From positions 144,702 through 208,701 of the forward strand of contig BCJJ01000011.1 in the NCBI GenBank assembly GCA_039545355.1: a stretch of DNA of 64,000 bases. The letters run 5' to 3'. The notes under the pieces are model-generated. The model did not search any database and was not told the origin of the DNA. It worked only from the letters and a program-made list of their open reading frames with translations. Origin of the DNA: Trichosporon coremiiforme. Taxonomy: Eukaryota; Basidiomycota; Tremellomycetes; Trichosporonales; Trichosporonaceae. How positions within the stretch are numbered: position 1 is the first letter of the stretch; each line of letters opens with the position of its first letter. Below, piece after piece: positions 1-9,950 of this stretch. The translations under genes and the position numbers were made by a program.

Positions 1-318
1 GGCCAGTATGCACGGTGCGCTCTGCAGCTCCATTTGTCCGAGCTGCCAAGCATTCCTTTCGGCTCTACGCGGAGTTTCTAGGCATAAAGAGTACCGTTGC
101 ATGAGTTATGGATCAGAACATGAGCCACGGCGAGGTTGACGATGACGGGACCGTGCGCATCCGTTCGACTTAACCTGTGACCCTAGTTTAGTTTTCGGTG
201 GTTTGACCTGTCAAGCATTGGTCTCACCTTCTTCAGCAGCGAGCAGCGGTGCGCCAACGCGTGACTGGTATATCACATTCATTCGACTTCTATGTACAGT
301 GGTCCCTACGGAAGGTGT

Positions 319-571
319 CTACTCCTCACGGACGAGAGGAAAGATGAACAGATCACCCATGGGGCGGTTGCAGAATCGGCAGCGCTGGCACTTGTCGCCG
401 AGCACCTCACAGTAGGCTTCAGGTCAGTACATTTCTGAAGACCAACTCACCGCCCTCGTTCTTGCCGTCGTGGTCACCGTGGCAGCCGGGACGGATCTTG
501 CGGGTCGAGGTGACGTTGAAGGTAGGGAGAGCCTTGGGCTTGTTGGTCTTGAGACAAAGGAAGGCGAACAT
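319..571 (-). CDS. Small Cys-rich family protein, member 1 (72 aa)
   Basis: Exons are complement 451-571 and 319-416, with a 34-nt intron (GTGAGT donor, CTGAC branch, AAG acceptor). The joined frame is open from ATG at 571 to TAG at 319. A 32-residue N-terminal part with several Lys and Thr precedes the core, which begins RPGCHGDHDGKNEG and ends CQRCRFC. It fits C-x-G-D-x2-G-x-N-x4-C followed by C-x-F-C, the motif shared by the eight small genes in this window. The intron interrupts the codon two before the second core Cys, in phase 1, as in the other copies. A second likely intron (577-620, GTGAGT to CTGACAACAG) lies in the 5' leader. No convincing signal peptide or membrane segment is seen. 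The closing Cys cluster suggests metal binding, but that is inference; function is unknown. Confidence 0.72.
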
Positions 572-621
572 GGTCTCTGTTGTCAGCACTGTGAGGGGCA
601 AGGGGATGATTCTAACTCACC

Positions 622-1367
622 CTTGTTGCTCGAGGGGAAGAGGTTGAACCTGGAGGAATGAGAAAGCGAATTGCTCACCTCGTTGACATTTATCCACCCG
701 CTACCACTGTTAGCAGTGTTGAGAACGTCGGAGACAGCTGCCGCGATGCCGCCCCGCAAACATGTCGACTCCTCGATCCAGAATGCGGTAGAATTGCGCC
801 CCTCAGGAAGGTGAACGTGCCAAGACTCCCAAGACTTTGCGGACCAACGATGAGATGACAACGATGAGATGAGACGAGAGTTGCGACGCTGTGCCGTTCT
901 CCCTGTCGTACGCGGGTCGTGCACATTATCGTGCACCCTTTGCGGAGACGTCCTCGATTTGTCACTCGGGACCGCCGGACCGCACGCTACGCCGCCGTAG
1001 AGGATAATTGGGGTCATCGGGCGTGATGGAGAAATGGACGTTTCACAATGTGCAGTCCATATGGTGCCTGTTTCCAGAGACAGCGATGTGAAGACAGTTG
1101 ACACTTGTGCACAATGCTTTGCTCTGACAGCTTCACTCCAGTGACTCCAGTGAGCATTGCCAGCACTAATGTCAGTGACCCTCAAGCAATGGCCGTTATC
1201 AAGCGTTGTTGCATCGATTTCGAACCTGTAACACAAACCGACGCTCCGCTCAGAAGTTCCGCACGCTGCTCTCATGACATGGCTATGCATACATTTCGAC
1301 TTGTAGCAGGTCTCCTACAACCCTCTCTGGAGTGCTTGGTGAGAGCTCAATCCGCGAGAGTCTGGCG
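622..1367. other. Intergenic stretch between family members 1 and 2
   Basis: It holds the upstream region of member 1 and the 3' flank of member 2. A long minus-strand frame crosses it, but there is no family motif, no recognisable domain and frames are open on both strands, so I call no gene. Nothing else is seen. Confidence 0.5.
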
Positions 1368-1530
1368 TCACATGAACCGCTCGCAGTAGAAGCAGAAGAA
1401 CACCCCATCAAACCCCTGAACGGCACGAAACTCGCCTGGCTGTCAGCTCCGTATCCTACGTTGGCAGCCCACTGCCGCGATTGTCGCCGTCGTCGTCACC
1501 GTTGCATAGGTCTGTGTCGCGGTGTCCCAT
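1368..1530 (-). CDS. Small Cys-rich family protein, member 2 (41 aa)
   Basis: Exons are complement 1473-1530 and 1368-1435, with a 37-nt intron (GTGGGC donor, GCTGACAGCCAG acceptor side). ATG at 1530 is followed after seven residues by the core CNGDDDGDNRG, and the protein ends in CFYC plus four residues before TGA. The phase-1 intron sits exactly where it does in the other copies. One thing is odd: the residue at the second core Cys position is Phe (SEF), so this copy keeps only three of the four core cysteines. Both exons are below 70 nt. It may be a diverging or dying copy. Function unknown. Confidence 0.62.
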
Positions 1531-2352
1531 ATCGTTCTACTTGTTTTAGTGTCAGGCTAGCGGTTTTATTCTGAGGCGTGATATCGGACAGCGATTTGTC
1601 GACGTTTTGGATTGGGGTTGATGGAAAGAGACGATGGCGCTGATATTTAGACAGAGCGAATCGGCAAACCTGGCGACGAGACAGCAAGTGGGACGACAAG
1701 TCGGACTACGAGAAACAGTGCGCCGGCTTCGTGAGAACGCACACATCGTTGTCAGCATGACACGACGTCGCGATGGCGGGATGATGGGAAGCAACACACG
1801 AAGTGGCGCACACTTCTACGGCCATGACGTCTGGTAGCGGGTTCAGCCTCGACCTCCACTTCTCCCACTCCACATCTCTTCGATAGAGCGCTCGTGCAGC
1901 CACATGGCTCCCGTAACCGCTAAGGGGGCAGTGCGCCATTTTCGTGTCGATCAAGGCCCAAGCGTCAGAAAGTCAAAGCAGTGCACGGCATCAGTGGTGA
2001 CAAGCGACATGGAAGTGATGCATAGAGGGGTCTGATTCTAGCAGAGCCCCAAGAGATAAAGGTCGGGCGGCGGGCGTCGGAGGTTGGGCGTGAGATACGT
2101 GTGTGAGAACTCCAGGCCCGTCTAGGGCGGAAGTCTGTCGGGGCGTTGGCCGTAGGGATGAAGATTACGGACTGATGGGACTTTGATGAGATTTGGGAGT
2201 TTGCGGATTTTCGAATCTCCTCGATCTTCGATCTTCGGCCGTCAGGTCGCCAGCCACGCAGTAGCCGTTCCCTCGGGTCGAGAGTGAGAGTGAAGGCGGG
2301 TGTTGAGGGTGAGGGAGGGAGGGGTAATGAGGGCAGCATTGACGCGCTGCAG
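1531..2352. other. Intergenic stretch between family members 2 and 3
   Basis: I looked for the C-x-G-D core and the C-x-aromatic-C ending on both strands and found neither. Overlapping open frames are of the kind GC-rich DNA produces. No gene is supported. Confidence 0.5.
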
Positions 2353-2511
2353 CTACTCGATAGCCTGCAGACAGTAGGAGCAAAAAACGAGGTCGGCGAC
2401 CTGGACGGGGGCGCAGGTACCTGCTGTCAGCGAGTGTCCCCAAGGGGCAGCCAAGCTCATGAAATTCGTACATCCCGCGTTGTTACCGTTGTCGTCTCCG
2501 GAGCAGGGCAT
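2353..2511 (-). CDS. Small Cys-rich family protein, member 3 (35 aa)
   Basis: Exons are complement 2472-2511 and 2353-2420, with a 51-nt intron (GTACGA donor, CGCTGACAGCAG end). This is the shortest copy and almost pure motif: it opens MPCSGDDNGNNAG and closes VFCSYC plus five residues. The intron is in phase 1 at the standard codon, and splicing creates a Cys codon there. Cysteines fall at core positions 1, 12, 14, 25 and 28. With only 35 residues it would be ignored by most gene finders; its credibility comes from the match to its neighbours. Function unknown. Confidence 0.68.
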   Translation of the reverse strand: MPCSGDDNGNNAGCTNFMSLAAPWGHSLTAGTCAPVQVADLVFCSYCLQAIE

Positions 2512-3543
2512 TGTTATTGTTGGTATGGGTAAGGGGCGTGGGAGTCGAAACCGGAGTCGTAGTTGTAGTTGCTCGGGTGGTCGCGTTGGGGGTGATCGGG
2601 GGTCACGAGAGAATTAAGAGTGAGGAAGAGAGGTTATAAGGAGGTCGGCGTGAAGGTTTGAGGGCGTTGGTGGAGCTGGTGGTGCGAAAGTACCGAAAGG
2701 ACAGTGAATGAGAGTAAGAGTGCAGTGTTGACAGCGTTGCTGGCTGTGCTCCCGTTTCGTGGAGAGCTAGGAGTGGAGGCAAGAGGGGATGTCGATCTGC
2801 ACCTTGCGCCCCCGCGGACCGACGCCCCGACGCTCCATCGCCCCGAACAGCGAAACACACACGCGTCTTATCTGACCCCCATTTGTGCCGCAGTAAGTGC
2901 TCATTGACACGGCGCAGAGCGCCCAGTTCCTGACACGGCCGGAAGGTTGCGCGGGTTGGTCACCTCAGCGAGTCGCTCCCAAGCCTCAGGCTGAGGTGTG
3001 GGCCGTGTGTTGTGCCCCCTTGTTCTTCGACTCGCATGCGCATTTACCTGTGTCACTATGGATTGACTAGTGAAGTAGCAGTACCAGCGATGCCAGCGGT
3101 GCCAGATCTCGAGCGGAGCGATACCGCCGGGATCCAAGTCGGATCTGGGCGGAGCCGTCCGGCGATTTTCTGAGAATCGTCTCCTGGCTAAATCTGCCAC
3201 ACTCGCCCCTGTTGCCCGCCTCTCTGGCATCTGTTGGATTGCGACCGAGCTCCGGCGGACGATGGTGTAGATAGACATGCTTCAGTGCACGGTGCGTGCA
3301 GACATGCTTGTTGTGACTCCCCGCCCAGGTGCGCTGTGCACGCAGCCCAGCGTCGGCTCCGCACCACTCGCCCATCTGCGCATCCTGTCTCACCCATAAC
3401 GCAAAAGTCTCGGTCGTCTCCACAGCTCCAACGTCTCCTTCCTTCCCAACTTCACTGCTCGAGTCCACGAAACTGCTGAATAGCTCCAACGACGCCCTCA
3501 CCAGTGCTTACCTGATTCCAACGACCGGCGACTGGACCTTGCA
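2512..3543. other. Divergent intergenic region between members 3 and 4
   Basis: This kilobase separates a minus-strand and a plus-strand family member, so it should hold both upstream regions. Frames with scattered cysteines occur around 3200-3400, but none shows the family spacing. No gene is called. Confidence 0.5.
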
Positions 3544-3742
3544 ATGAGCCGCAAGCTCAAGCCCGACCCCATTACGCCCGGCATGTGCGCCGGCGACTAC
3601 CTTGGCGACAACCGCAATCGTGAGCTACGGCACGCCGACGCACTGCCCCAAGCTGATGCCAGGTCCCTGCCACTTCCTCTGCAACAGGGAGAAGCGGTAC
3701 CTCGTTTGCGGATACTGCTATCGCTGTCTCTGGACTGCCTGA
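3544..3742 (+). CDS. Small Cys-rich family protein, member 4 (51 aa)
   Basis: Exons are 3544-3619 and 3663-3742, with a 43-nt intron (GTGAGC donor, CTGATGCCAG end). It starts at ATG 3544 and ends TGG ACT GCC TGA. The core reads PGMCAGDYLGDNRNR across the splice, then PCHFLCNREKR and a C-x-Y-C ending with one further Cys (VCGYCYRCLW). The phase-1 intron position is identical to the other copies. It is the only plus-strand member in the 0.3-6 kb cluster, so the array is not a simple head-to-tail tandem. The leader region is pyrimidine-rich, as is usual upstream of genes in this window. Function unknown. Confidence 0.72.
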
Positions 3743-4288
3743 CGATGCCCTCCTCACTTGTTGGGCCGAGCTCAATTCCTCAGTCCTTCTCGCACCGTAC
3801 CCTCCGCACCGTCACACCTAGTCTTCGACTTTAGGTAGCGCCCGCCTCCACCTCCACCTTTCCAGCCATACCCAACAACCCAGACCAGTCACCCCTCACG
3901 CTGGGCCAGCTGTACCCGAAACACTAGCATCTACACGTGCCACGGGAGAGTAACGGAATGTACAATGAAATGCATGCATGCTACAAAAGAGTGGGTTTTT
4001 ATACAACGTGATCGTCAGGGCTCCTCTTGCCGGCGGCCGGAGTGGCCGGATGAGAGTGCAAGGGTGAATTGTATCAGGGTTGGGGGCGCGGGGCTCCGTG
4101 CTGGGTGATTTAAGCTTTCGGCTGTCGACGCCGCCTAGGCTATAGGCTGTTTGCTTTGTGTTTGTTGTGCTGGCGTTACCAACTCTTGGGAAGGGATCGA
4201 AGTGCGGTGTGCGATGCAGTGAGGCAGACTTGAGGCGTGGATACGGCGTGTTGATCTCGGGGAGACATGCGAAGATGGAGTACTGGCG
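3743..4288. other. Intergenic stretch between convergent members 4 and 5
   Basis: Members 4 and 5 converge here, so this is shared 3' flanking DNA. It includes an A-rich patch near 3960-4010 that could serve polyadenylation. No gene is seen. Confidence 0.45.
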
Positions 4289-4520
4289 TTACGAGTGCCG
4301 CCAGAGCGACATGGACAGCCTCCTTAGCCATCCCTTCTCCTGTCGCATGGGGGTGAGGAAGTGCCAGAGCGTCACTTTCTGGCAGAACTGGCACCAGAGT
4401 TTCTCCTCACTGAGTCGGACGAGATGGCAGGGTGCTGCTGTTAGCTTACGGAGGTTCGGGAAACAGCTTACCGCCGGCATTGCGCGAGCACGAGTCGCCG
4501 ACGCACGGGACGTCGACCAT
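4289..4520 (-). CDS. Small Cys-rich family protein, member 5 (64 aa)
   Basis: Exons are complement 4472-4520 and 4289-4434, with a 37-nt intron (GTAAGC donor, GCTAACAGCAG end; an alternative acceptor three bases earlier keeps the frame). From ATG 4520 the core is PCVGDSCSRNAG, then APCHLVRLSEEK, then CQFC. A 26-residue basic and Trp-containing tail follows (KGWLRRL, SLWRHS). The core Gly after D-x2 is Ser here, while Cys, Asp and Asn positions are kept. The frame is open far upstream of 4520 without another ATG, so an upstream exon cannot be excluded. Function unknown. Confidence 0.68.
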
Positions 4521-5185
4521 GCCGTACTCGCTTGGAGGGCCGCAGCTATCGTGCGAGCTGCAGGTCGCGCAGGTCGAGTCGGACCCGACGCTACTGAGGC
4601 GATTCGTGCGGGCTGGAATGGTGAAGATGTTGATGTGGAGGAGGAGTGGAAGGTGTTCTGGTGCTGATACGATGGTGGGATGACGGGGGTCCGGGGACGC
4701 GTGCCCGTCAGGAGCCAGTTCAGGATCTAAACGAGGAGTCGTGTGAGGTGATAGCGAGGTTGGTCGTGAGAGCGAGAGTGATAGGGTCAACGGTGTCCAC
4801 CCAAGAGGAGATGTGTAAGGCGTAGTGTGTTGTGTTGAGATGATTTGAGTTGAGCGTTATGGGAAAAGTCGACGTCGGCGTCGGTGCATCCCGGCTGTTG
4901 CTGGATCTGGCACGAGGCTAAGGAGGCGCAATTACCGCACGATCCCGGTTCCTCGGATCTGATTCTTTCCCCGGCGTGATATTTCTGTCATCAGCTCCAG
5001 ACACCTTTCTTGAAGCTCACTGTATTGTACAGATGCTGGGTATGCTTGGTATGCGATGCTATGCAGTGTGCAGAGTGATGTGGTGGGCGGTGTTGCGGCT
5101 GTGCGTTGTTGGCGGGGGCTGAAAGGACGAGGAACCGAAAGTGGAGGTGGAGGTGGAGGCGTTTGTTTTGGCCTTTTCAGCGTCG
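4521..5185. other. Intergenic stretch between members 5 and 6
   Basis: Contains the upstream region of member 5 and the 3' flank of member 6. Short ATGC/TATGC-rich iterations occur near 5030-5070. No gene is supported. Confidence 0.45.
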
Positions 5186-5546
5186 TTACTGAGCAGCGGC
5201 CGCTGTGACGGTCGCGGCGGTAGCAGCCGGTGCGGCGCGGAGTGCGCGATCGAATAGGTCGTATGCGAACCCGTACTCAATCCTGCAGAAATAGCAGTAG
5301 TGTCCGTCGTCGTAGGGTAGGAACCAGCAGAGTCCTGATCGTCAGTTTGCATGCGAAGCCGTCTAACTCACGGCTTGCGTTGTGCCGCGAGGGCCGGGAA
5401 CCGGCACAGAAGATGATGACGCGGGGGCAGCCGGGGATCTGAACGTATTGCTGCGGCGCTTTCCCCGTGGTTTGCTGTTCAGGTTGGGAGACGGCTTTGG
5501 CGGGGACGGGGGTGGGATCTGCGGCAGTATCTGGAGTCTGGCTCAT
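5186..5546 (-). CDS. Small Cys-rich family protein, member 6 (107 aa)
   Basis: Exons are complement 5372-5546 and 5186-5334, with a 37-nt intron (GTGAGT donor, CTGACGATCAG end). It is the longest copy. A Pro/Gln-rich N-terminal stretch of about 45 residues precedes the core CAGSRPSRHNAS-R-LC, then WFLPYDDGHY and CYFC, and an Ala-rich tail ends the protein. Core Asp is replaced by Ser and the first spacing is one residue longer (C-x13-C), yet the phase-1 intron still lies two codons before the second Cys. This is the most divergent member, and the intron position is the strongest argument for membership. Function unknown. Confidence 0.66.
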
Positions 5547-5848
5547 TACGATAAGCTCTTGAGGAAGACTTCGATGATGGTGAAGGTGAGTGGAGCGAGG
5601 TGGGTTAGTCGTAGTGCACCGACCAGACGCACAGACGCACAGTCCGTACGCGTAGCGTGCACCTGGAGTGAGACAGTCCCTTCGCCGCAGCTTCGCGCAG
5701 TGATCCGCGTCCTGGCCTCCTCATCGCTATGCGCTATGCCATGGATTGACCCCTTCAGACTCCTTCAAATTAGCAACGCCTCTGTACTGACCACTTCAAG
5801 CTTCGGCAGACGACGTCGAAGAGGTGGAGAGCATACAGAAGCATCAGA

Positions 5849-6017
5849 CTACCACTTAACAGCCTTGGAGCACCACTTGCAAACCCAGCCGTGATGCTTG
5901 TGCTTGACGGGGTTGCAGAATTCTACCCAGGTCAGCGCAGAGCTCTCACGAAGGATCGGAAAGCTCACGGTCCTGGTTGATGCCGCGGTAGTCGCCAGTG
6001 CAGAGGATGGCGATCAT
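5849..6017 (-). CDS. Small Cys-rich family protein, member 7 (40 aa)
   Basis: Exons are complement 5969-6017 and 5849-5922, with a 46-nt intron (GTGAGC donor, GCTGACCTGGGTAG end). ATG 6017 gives MIAILCTGDYRGINQDQFC, an exact fit to C-x-G-D-x2-G-x-N-x4-C. His- and Lys-rich NPVKHKHHGWV then leads to CKWC and a short Lys-rich end before TAG. The His cluster beside the Cys pair makes metal binding plausible, but that is inference. It is the last member of the left cluster. Function unknown. Confidence 0.7.
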
Positions 6018-7015
6018 GGTGCTCGCGAGGGCATGAGTAGAGAGGGTGAGCTGACAGAACTTGCGGGAGGTCGGTTTGACGATCGTTTGATTAGGACCGA
6101 CGGGTAAGAGTAGGCGTGGGAGAAGGAAGCATCAAGCTCCGTGCGATGAGGGCGGCAAGCGAGCAAGAGCGTCGAGCTCGGCAGGGTCAAGCTGATTGTT
6201 GAGGGATGTGAGCTTCCTAAGCATCACCTGTGGCTTAAGTATCTCAAGACGTTGTATAGAAAAGACGGGCGGAACAGTCGTACGTCATGTACGTCGTCAC
6301 GACGCAACGAGACCTTTGTCGAACATCGTGCTTTGTGCGTGTCCTGAGATCCGGATGTGCTATGCGCAGCGGAGAGACTGATTGAGCAGCACTGGATGAG
6401 CCTGGCCGCCGGGAAGGCCGCGAGTCTTTGCGCTCTGCACCGCTGGGTGGTTGGGGCGCTGGGTCATGGAGTGAGGTGGGGCGTGGGAGGTGGGGAGCGG
6501 ATGGAACAGACCTGGCCGCGACCTGGGCGCGCATATGATGCACACAGGGAGAGTCGTGCAATGCGGAGCATTCAACCAGCGGCCGTCATTGCTTTATCCT
6601 TATCTGCCAGCTTGCGTTAATCTGCCACACCTCTGTCGCAAGTGAACGAAGCCGTGAAGTGGCCAGGAGTAGAGAAGACGCTGTCAGCCATCATGGAAGC
6701 CTATGCGCCGGCCTATGCCTAGCAACCAAGTCGATCGGGGCGTCAAAAGTCGTCGTGCCACCGACGATGACTCGTGAACCCACTCTCCGCCTAGATCTGC
6801 AGATCAGCCGCTACAGAACCCAATGCATCTTCTTTCTTTTATCTATGAACTTTTGTTACAACCAACAACACTCTTCACGCTCATACCTTCTCCGTAACCT
6901 TGCCTCCGTCCTCGTCATCGTCCTGTGTCGGAGCATCTGTCGCCTGTCCGCTAACAGTAGCACCAGCAGTAGAAGCTGAGTATTTCGGAGGGGACGCAGG
7001 CAGAGAATTGGATGT
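6018..7015. other. Intergenic stretch between member 7 and the otubain gene
   Basis: About 1 kb with upstream DNA of member 7 and the 3' flank of the otubain gene. Both strands carry open frames without any recognisable motif or family core. Nothing is called. Confidence 0.5.
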
Positions 7016-8607
7016 CTACGGGGACAGGTTGGAGCGCGGGGACGGGAGCTCGACTTGCGCTGAGGAGTGCGGGGACTCTGGCTCCGGCGCGGCGAGTCCA
7101 GAGCCAGAGGCAGCAGCGCCGGAAGCAGCAGCGGCGGCGGAGCTTCCAGCCGCAGCGGAAGAGCCGGCAGCAGCAGTTGTGGCCGGCGCCTCAGTCGATG
7201 CAACGATGTGCAGGCCCTCCTGAGGCGGCCTGACCTTCTTGGGCGATGTCGGGGGCGACTTGGCCGTCGAGCGCGATTTGGGCTGCCGTCCGGCCGCAGA
7301 AGCGGCGACTTCTCGTTCCTGCCTTGCGAGCTCGGCGTGCATGTTGTCCTTCGTGACGACGTCAAAGTGTCCGGGTCTGGTTGTCAGTTGAACTCGCAGC
7401 CTTTCAACTCACCGATACAGCAGTGTCAGGGGCCTGGCGTCCTCGCTGGCGGCGTTGTCGCCGACCTCGAGCCAGACGTCGTCCCCTTGGCTCTGGTCGA
7501 GATACGCAACGCGGACGGGCATACGGAGTGCGCTCGCCAGCGCCGTGATCTGAACATTGTCCGCTTCCTTGCCGCACGGCTCGACCTCCTCCCTCGCAAA
7601 CTGCTCGGGGGATATCGGCTCGAAAGTCACGGGCGAGAACAGGAAGGCCGCGAAGCGATCCTCGTGCGTCCTGATGTATGCGCCGGTGATGAGGCGCAGG
7701 GCGACGACGATGTAGTTGCTCCGCTCGGGATCTTGGAGGAGCTGCAGGAGGGAGTACTCTGTCGGTTCGTTGCCCGGGGACGGGGAGACGAAGCTGCTCA
7801 CGGCCCCGATCAGGGGGTCCATGAACTCCTCGACCTGGATGTCAGCTGAAGGTGGCCGCCAGAGAGCTCACAAGATCAGCCTGGAAGCCAGCGCTCTGCA
7901 TCGAGGGAAGCGTCGCGTTGATAACGGCGAGCGCGGCCTCGGCATCTTCCTTCGGCGAGGGCGCGTACAGGATGCGCAGGAGGTAGGCGAGCGTGAACGC
8001 TGTCTGTCAGCTCAGCCCAACCATCTAGCTCACATCGGTAGAAACAGTCTCCGTCACCACGCGCGCGCCAAGCCTGGTCCCACCCGTTCGCCTCGAGGTC
8101 CTCCAGTTTGCGCAGCACAGCAGGGCTGCCGTGTAGGTACTCCTGCCGGATAGCGAGGAGGGGTACAGGGCCAGTGAGCAGGGGCTGTCATGTCAGCTGA
8201 AGGACTAACGGGTAGCTCACCTGCTTCAGCACATCCGCCTGTATTCCCTCAGTCAACCTCGCAATCTCCTGATCCGTGAGGGAAGAGAGCGCGGTCGTCT
8301 CGTCAATAACCCGTTCGGGCCGGGGCGTGCGTGCCCCGCTCGCGTACCCGCCCTGGTTCTCCCATGTCATGCCCGCGTCGGCGGCGGCCATGGCGCTGGC
8401 CATGAACTCGGACATCGGAGCTGCATTCGCGTAAGCCGCATTCCCGGTGCGCGAAGCGGAGCGGCTGTGGGCGGCGGCGGGCGTGCTCGTCCCGGAAGCA
8501 GCAGCGGAGGTTGGTTTCGGCCTAGGCTTGCTCCCAGAGCTCGACGGGGGCGTAGGGCGCTTGTTGTCGTCCTTACTCGCGCCGAAGACCTTGTTGAGCC
8601 ATCCCAT
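7016..8607 (-). CDS. Otubain-type ubiquitin thioesterase (OTU cysteine peptidase, C65)
   Basis: Five exons: complement 8221-8607, 8034-8184, 7872-7999, 7413-7834 and 7016-7376 (482 aa). The first 130 residues are Ser/Pro/Ala-rich low complexity. The catalytic Cys lies in RGDGDCFYR (about residue 176), immediately before an intron, and continues SFTLAYLLRIL. The catalytic His lies in LLYRPGHFDVV (about residue 366), as in the OTUB1 ending PGHYD. The middle part (LRLITGAYIRTHEDRF) is also otubain-like. Otubains remove Lys48-linked ubiquitin and can inhibit E2 enzymes in cytosol and nucleus; that is family knowledge. The final 100 residues are an Ala/Ser/Pro tail not found in human OTUB1. The upstream region is shared with the divergent Vma12-type gene. 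Confidence 0.88.
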
Positions 8608-8914: not shown

Positions 8915-9950
8915 ATGGCGTCGACAAAGCTGGTTCTCCAGCCGCACCTGCGGCAACGCCTCGATACTGTCTCTCCCCTCCTCGACGGCGAGCTGCGGAA
9001 GGAGCTCGAGGCTGTGCTCGCCCAGCCTGAGGTGGAGGCGAGCCACGCAAGCGCGCCGCTTGCTGGCGGCGAGGAAGGATCAGACATCGCCCCACAGAAG
9101 GAGGAGTCACATTCCAGCGTGACAGAAGCAACGCCAGCTGTCGACCCTTCAGCTTCCACGGACGAGACAGAGAAGTCGGAGAAGACGGATGTCGGCGGAG
9201 AGGACGCCGAGGATGAACAGCCCGAGATCATCCCACCAACAGTCGATGTCGACCTTCTCGATCGATTATCTCGCTGGACGTCGGGACAAGGAGCTTCTCT
9301 CCGAAAAGCAGGCCTCGGTGAGTTATCTTGTTATTGGACCCAGCCAACCCCAGACCCCGCCGAATACAGCTACATAGCCCTCCTGGCGGGTACATCAGCG
9401 TACCTTCCCCGAGCCCAAGTCCGCGCGCTCCGGGACGCAGAGCAAGCCAGCGAGAAGGTAAGCTTTATTCTTTCACTTGCAGAGCTGACCCCAGCCCTCC
9501 CCTTATTTGCCGTCACACCTCTCCGCAACCCTGCAACCGACTTTCGCCTCCGAGTATCGACAACTGACCCGACTCCTGTCGACGATTCTGAACATTCTCT
9601 TCTCGGTTTTCGGATGCGGGTTCGCAGCGTACGTTGCTGCTACCACGGGCGCGGGGTGGAGCCGCGAGAATGCCGTTCTGCTTGCTGTTGCCGTCGGCGC
9701 CATCGTTGGCGTAGCGGACGCGGGCATCGTGTTCCTGTACAAGAGACGGGTTAAGGAAGATGGCGTGCGGAGCGCGAAGTTGAGGGCGAAGTATAGTCGG
9801 GGTACGGGGGCTACGGGCGTACTCCTTGAACGAGACGGGGAGGGCGAGATCACGAAGGAAATCGCGGTCGCGGTGGGTGAAGGGACGGTCATCCCCGCCC
9901 CGAAGCGGGAAGTGAGGCTGCGCCGACGGGCGGTGGGAGAGAAGCATTAG
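8915..9950 (+). CDS. VMA12: V-ATPase assembly factor, Vma12/TMEM199 type
   Basis: Exons are 8915-9317, 9354-9457 and 9495-9950 (320 aa). The N-terminal 100 residues are acidic (TDETEKSEKTD). A conserved middle part reads LLAGTSAYLPRA, matching the family pattern of a short loop ending in Y-[LI]-P before a basic helix. SEYRQLTRLL then leads into two hydrophobic segments at about 196-218 and 228-250, as in Vma12/TMEM199. The protein acts in the ER membrane, helping to assemble the V0 sector of the vacuolar ATPase; that is family knowledge. The third exon starts after a GCTGACCCCAG acceptor. The C-terminal tail is basic (PKREVRLRRR). Identification rests on architecture and short motifs. Confidence 0.75.

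Follow-up and report, generated by a model that had tools for sequence, protein, structure and literature searches.

A dispersed family of predicted two-exon genes with a fixed phase-1 intron and a likely zinc knuckle in the genome of Trichosporon coremiiforme

Several described protein groups are framed by cysteines in ways that recall the genes reported here. The DUF5763 domain (PF19067) has the consensus CxGxTxxGxxC followed by a YCxxH knuckle, a layout of two half-sites in which a CxG...GxxC unit precedes an aromatic-Cys-x2-ligand knuckle. The zinc ribbon of eL43 (60S L37a) and C2H2 fingers such as those of ZFAT carry a C-x2-C knuckle with aromatic and basic neighbors, and the fungal small secreted cysteine-rich proteins, an effector-like class, are small, Cys framed, multicopy, and clustered. 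Each of these likenesses is found in a cluster of tiny genes, g1 to g7, at positions 319 to 6017 of a 64,000-nucleotide stretch of the Trichosporon coremiiforme genome, hereafter the window (C11:144702-208701, in an assembly of 42,036,993 bases and 134 contigs). These genes are members of a wider family, scattered through the genome and numbering at least 21 predicted two-exon genes, that is marked by a phase-1 intron at a fixed codon, and on balance the four Cys residues brought together by splicing probably bind one zinc ion inside the cell.

The G+C content of the window is 59.64%. According to PMC7026411, strain JCM 2938 of T. coremiiforme is a hybrid with a genome of 42,353,277 bases and a G+C content of 59.60%. 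In the present assembly, the window region has a collinear counterpart on contig C23, in pieces that are 66 to 84% identical, and C11 at 1.16 Mb and C27 at 0.41 Mb form a second homeologous pair (74 to 85% identical). These collinear pairs indicate that the genome has two diverged halves, and the host genome is probably that of a hybrid Trichosporon.

A 27-base pattern for C-x-G-D-x2-G-x-N matched the genome 27 times, versus 8 times for a reversed control. Twelve of the matches are spliced members with introns shorter than 100 nt, and one more, on C48 (L034), has a 140-nt intron. The remaining 14 yielded no spliced member even with introns of up to 400 nt, in a scan that also missed L034, since its C-x-I-C was outside the rules of that scan. 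Other members depart from the strict pattern and were found beside those that match it, namely, g5 and g6 with their counterparts on C23, the C23 copy of g7, and single genes on C48, C44, and C11:1161k. The predicted genes, at least 21 of them, lie at eight places: C11:145k (seven members), C23 and C48 (three each), C11:1159k, C27, and C44 (two each), and C81 and C95 (one each), with 14 at the seven places beyond the window cluster. The true number is probably higher, because the strict pattern catches only five of the seven window genes and because about 8 to 10 kb was read around most of the other places. Protein queries for more paralogues returned only self-matches and homeologues, or nothing, and 21 is a lower bound. 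The motif and intron that the earlier note on this DNA had asked to see in related genomes are found at other places in this genome, and beyond it, three database proteins are related. Across 105 pairs of 15 cores, the median identity between paralogues is 0.34, with values of 0.33 both within the window and between the window and other places; given this equality, the window cluster lacks the look of a recent burst of tandem duplication. One C48 member (L034:1501; C48:79848), the gene with the 140-nt intron, stays open for a long stretch beyond CRGDKQGYNVGRPC...CVIC, and the core may thus occur within larger proteins as well.

In most members, the core reads C-x-G-D-x2-G-x-N-x4-C, then 9 to 14 residues, and then C-x2-C. 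As read from the sequence, exon 1 holds Cys1 and the GD..G.N turn, and exon 2 holds Cys2 to Cys4, including the C-x2-C knuckle, so that no single exon holds all four Cys residues. Each of the seven window models needs one phase-1 intron at a fixed site, with 34 nt between the start of the Cys1 codon and the donor (in g6, 37 nt); among all 21 genes, this distance is 34 nt for 19, whereas both members of the g6 pair, which have one extra residue, show 37 nt. An any-phase scan of 241,576 bases, allowing donors 18 to 75 nt from Cys1, gave 16 solutions for 14 genes, all of them at 34 nt and in phase 1. The other seven genes fail the core or splice-site rules of that scan, and their introns were placed by a scanner that takes phase 1 as given, apart from that of the C23 copy of g7, which was placed by hand. 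Intron length is 32 to 53 nt in 20 of the 21 genes and 140 nt in 1, the donor is GTRAG in 17, CTGA occurs within the last 30 intron bases in 18, and the length is not a multiple of three in 17. The four introns with lengths that are multiples of three, in g3, the C23 copy of g5 (L009:8190), and the C27/C11 pair L040:4745 and L047:3475, are all free of stop codons, and a read-through form is therefore possible in those four genes. Cys2 is present in 19 of the 21 members, and the final C-x2-C contains F, Y, or W in 18, counting g1 as CRFC rather than as the overlapping CQRC. The chosen start codons lie 1 to 46 residues before Cys1, with no ATG in the preceding 100 nt in 12 of the 15 members examined. 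No signal peptide was seen by eye at the predicted N termini, which agrees with the earlier description of the proteins as lacking one.

A strict spliced-motif scan, which recovers five of the seven window genes, found no site in 100 simulated 64-kb windows, and a looser scanner, which recovers all seven, had no hit over 3.84 Mb of simulated sequence. A chance origin of the motif is ruled out by these empty scans. At its threshold, the looser scanner also detected no further member elsewhere in the window, in five flanking stretches, of which one is partly N, or at the 14 nonmember pattern loci. Cys1, Cys3, and Cys4 are required by the scanner; Cys2 raises the score without being required.

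The homeologous copies compared are under purifying selection. The ratios of nonsynonymous to synonymous substitution rates (dN/dS; NG86 values) are 0.14 for g5, 0.12 for g6, 0.24 for g7, and 0.05 and 0.03 for two C11/C27 pairs, and the pooled value is 0.11 (bootstrap range, 0.07 to 0.16; five pairs, 288 aligned codons). The earlier note had suggested diversifying selection and named orthologous copies as the place to look for it; the comparison contradicts that suggestion, as all five homeologous pairs fall between 0.03 and 0.24, and a ratio above 1 between orthologous copies is ruled out at the subgenome level. The word "hypervariable" suits the paralogues, which have little in common apart from the frame and a median core identity of 0.34, but not the homeologous cores, which are 0.83 to 0.93 identical in four pairs. 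In the same number of pairs, exons are 80 to 94% identical, except for exon 1 of g6 (65%), introns are 46 to 62% identical, and identity falls to 53 to 72% in the 200 nt upstream and to 43 to 75% in the 150 nt downstream. An otubain gene beside the family has a dN/dS of 0.02. Adjoining it is an open reading frame (ORF) of no assigned identity (window positions 8915 to 9754), with a dN/dS of 0.54 and 49% protein identity over the aligned part, and a wrong gene model could add to its divergence. Set between these two values, the family appears constrained but not among the slowest-evolving genes.

Family gene content turns over between the subgenomes, by gain or loss. Pieces of C23:2326-7231 match C11:128,811-138,780, and C23 from position 7603 onward matches the window from position 3933 onward. 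Between the matching blocks, C11 has 9,853 bases (3,970 of them N) that include g1 to g4, and C23 has 371 bases. The only other match in the assembly to the DNA of window positions 300 to 6100 is C23:7603-9627, which covers g5 to g7 only, and no convincing exon of g1 to g4 was found in C23:1-12000. The part of the C11 stretch that lies in the window spans positions 1 to 3932, and because the run of 3,970 N ends directly at the left edge of the window, the cluster may extend further left. In addition, one framing Cys is missing from g2 and one from the C23 copy of g7, and both genes have the donor GTGGGC, features that fit decay.

Zinc is favored over disulfides by the C-x2-C pair, the two additional Cys residues, the lack of a visible signal peptide, and one His at the Cys2 position. 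This His occurs in a C44 member (L039:5574) under a 52-nt intron, and an alternative intron of 46 nt shifts it by two residues. In a profile search of PDB, the best matches were weak alignments, mostly of the C-terminal half, with the zinc knuckles of eL43 (E value, 0.025) and ZFAT (E value, 0.082). The small metal-binding fold proposed earlier is a fair inference. Among 19 cores, net charge varies between -5 and +3, which does not suggest a single common nucleic acid role. Splicing would join exon 1, with Cys1 and the turn, to exon 2, with Cys2 and the knuckle, and would complete the likely zinc site. The frame may then act as a rigid scaffold on which the loop and tails differ by paralogue, and each paralogue may serve as a small adaptor or regulator for a conserved partner of its own, with gain or loss taking place in blocks. 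The combination of conserved orthologues and divergent paralogues would fit such mini-scaffolds with one partner each. In its fullest form, the proposal is that zinc microproteins assembled by splicing, with a novel sequence and perhaps also a novel fold, make up an intracellular recognition or regulatory repertoire with one rigid frame, with one conserved partner per paralogue, and with entire blocks of copies that one parental genome has and the other lacks; we offer this extension tentatively and regard it as doubtful in its entirety.

Several observations weigh against the zinc-binding, spliced reading. Cys2 is absent from g2 and, unless His substitutes for it, from the C44 member, and Cys1 is replaced by Phe in the C23 copy of g7; the generality of the other three Cys residues is partly built in by the scanner. 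Exon 1 of g6, at 65% identity, is kept no better than its flanks (68 to 69%) and intron (62%). Profile scans, which covered 18 of the 21 members, gave no Pfam-A match over the gathering cutoff for any of the 18, known zinc families included. Searches of about 5.8 billion proteins returned only three relatives, P0001 (close in sequence to g7), P0002 (to the C48 member at L033), and P0003 (to the C27 member at L029), all of which read in frame through the intron. No spliced form was found among these proteins, which is weak evidence, as the word filter and the gene calling both disfavor finding one. Read-through relatives are also what gene callers without splicing are expected to produce, and they show that close relatives exist elsewhere but do not show a transcript. 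No promoter word is shared by the 15 members compared, the best 6- or 7-mer having a P value of about 1e-4 among thousands tested, and among 20 long ORFs selected from the window and the member loci, none is a neighbor gene common to the members. Each paralogue probably has one conserved partner, but this step is an inference, and no such partner appears in any of the evidence.

The turnover of g1 to g4, present in a 9,853-base stretch of C11 where C23 retains 371 bp, would also be expected of an intracellular conflict or self-recognition repertoire, such as a poison-antidote or allorecognition system, in which duplicated copies go on to diversify and lineages come to differ in their gene content. 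The median paralogue core identity of 0.34 and the grouping of up to seven members suit such a system, whereas the subgenome dN/dS values of 0.03 to 0.24 carry no sign of an arms race and the 20 selected ORFs contain no toxin or transposable element (TE) domain, and we judge this explanation unlikely. The conflict or recognition role raised in the earlier note has one indirect support, the presence or absence of g1 to g4 between subgenomes. It is less likely still that the genes encode secreted, disulfide-bonded small cysteine-rich proteins with an unseen upstream signal peptide exon: the starts lie 1 to 46 residues before Cys1, with no upstream ATG within 100 nt in 12 of 15 members, and the C-x2-C pair and likely Cys-to-His replacement suit metal better, even though most cores have an even number of Cys residues, the proteins are small, and a possible 5' intron directly precedes the start of g1.

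The three read-through database relatives and the absence of stops from all four three-fold introns raise the question of whether intron retention yields a working protein or a second isoform. Seventeen of the 21 introns are not multiples of three, intron sequence is poorly conserved in all four homeologous pairs, and the g5 intron is 37 nt long versus 39 nt in its C23 copy, so this explanation seems quite improbable. Least probable of all, and only barely credible, is that these are chance ORFs or old mobile-element relics rather than working genes. The gene models come from sequence, and both g2 and the C23 copy of g7 show the loss of a Cys together with the GTGGGC donor, as relics might; the simulated-sequence scans were nevertheless empty, purifying selection holds over five pairs, and the 20 ORFs scanned lack TE domains.

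All seven of the tiny genes that had been noticed within positions 319 to 6017 stand as gene models of 35 to 107 codons, all of them on the minus strand except g4, which is on the plus strand. The exact motif C-x-G-D-x2-G-x-N-x4-C, 9 to 12 residues, and C-x-(F/Y/W)-C, which had been described as shared by all of them, is present in four (g1, g3, g4, and g7), and it is assembled only once an intron of 34 to 51 nt at the common site is removed. The other three depart from it: g2 has Phe for Cys2, g5 has Ser for the second Gly, and g6 has one extra residue and Ser for Asp. The predicted 72-residue protein of g1 (319 to 571, minus strand; exon 1, 451 to 571; 34-nt intron, 417 to 450; exon 2, 319 to 416) has all four Cys residues. 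Its predicted N terminus is uncertain, and a 5' intron may lie directly before the ATG. Upstream of this start, positions 570 to 680 contain donor-like and acceptor-like sites, which may mark a 5' intron or another first exon. The predicted 41-residue protein of g2 (1368 to 1530, minus strand; exon 1, 1473 to 1530; 37-nt intron, 1436 to 1472; exon 2, 1368 to 1435) lacks Cys2, and the gene is possibly in decay. For g3 (2353 to 2511, minus strand; exon 1, 2472 to 2511; 51-nt intron, 2421 to 2471; exon 2, 2353 to 2420; 35 residues predicted), an alternative intron of 48 nt exists, and the reading frame stays open across the intron. The sole plus-strand member in the window, g4 (3544 to 3742), has exon 1 at 3544 to 3619, a 43-nt intron at 3620 to 3662, and exon 2 at 3663 to 3742, with a predicted product of 51 residues.

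The remaining three genes, all on the minus strand, have homeologues on C23. The predicted protein of g5 (4289 to 4520; exon 1, 4472 to 4520; 37-nt intron, 4435 to 4471, or alternatively 34 nt; exon 2, 4289 to 4434; 64 residues) is 91% identical to that of its homeologue (L009). The longest predicted product, of 107 residues, is that of g6 (5186 to 5546; exon 1, 5372 to 5546; 37-nt intron, 5335 to 5371; exon 2, 5186 to 5334), which has the variant core CAGSRPSRHN. The last, g7 (5849 to 6017; exon 1, 5969 to 6017; 46-nt intron, 5923 to 5968; exon 2, 5849 to 5922), has a predicted product of 40 residues; Phe occupies the Cys1 position in its homeologue, and the database relative P0001 retains Cys1. 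Near members, the 20 selected ORFs include those for otubain, EPL1, a WD40 protein, an exonuclease, a sugar transporter, and an MgsA-type ATPase, and several of the 20 have no Pfam match. tRNA genes lie beside the C23 homeologue (L009:3638-3708) and upstream of the window (L003:5431-5510). The L009 tRNA gene overlaps an element of about 105 bp, of which the genome has dozens of copies that are 80 to 96% identical.

In sequence terms, the family is likely new and is best read as one of two-exon microproteins with a likely zinc knuckle. Standard gene finders are likely to overlook proteins of mostly 35 to 72 residues that are split by an intron of 32 to 53 nt, and current annotations may therefore lack the family. 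Together, the fixed intron and core can serve as a search key when other genomes are scanned. The probably hybrid genome supplies orthologue pairs, which separate differences among paralogues from fast evolution of the genes themselves. If the zinc and partner steps are true, the family would amount to a natural, compact collection of diversified mini-scaffolds.

Among known families, the searches of Pfam, NCBIfam, PDB, and DUF5763 gave nothing convincing, and as far as Pfam goes, the earlier statement that the family is unnamed stands. The weak Pfam matches were to three families, one each, the best being DUF6436 (E value, 0.025; 14.7 bits versus a cutoff of 27.3), and no NCBIfam model matched any of the 18 scanned members over its curated cutoff, with one weak match at an E value of 0.15. 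DUF5763 matched none of the 18 at E values of up to 10, although the HMMER filters drop most weak matches. In the genome itself, no DUF5763 match exceeded the 26.3-bit cutoff, and the three weak ones (on C39, C1, and C3; best, 15.8 bits) lie off the member loci; control genomes likewise gave none over the cutoff, so this search by itself says little. No description of the family was found in the literature consulted, including passages of PMC7026411 and PMC12820176.

Relative to DUF5763, the family has three more residues between the first two Cys residues, usually has Asp and Asn, and has Cys as the last ligand. With eL43 and ZFAT, it is mostly the C-terminal half that aligns, and neither has a counterpart to the C-x-G-D-x2-G-x-N segment. 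Unlike the fungal secreted cysteine-rich proteins, the members have no signal peptide by eye, carry C-x2-C within the core, and are under purifying selection between the subgenomes.

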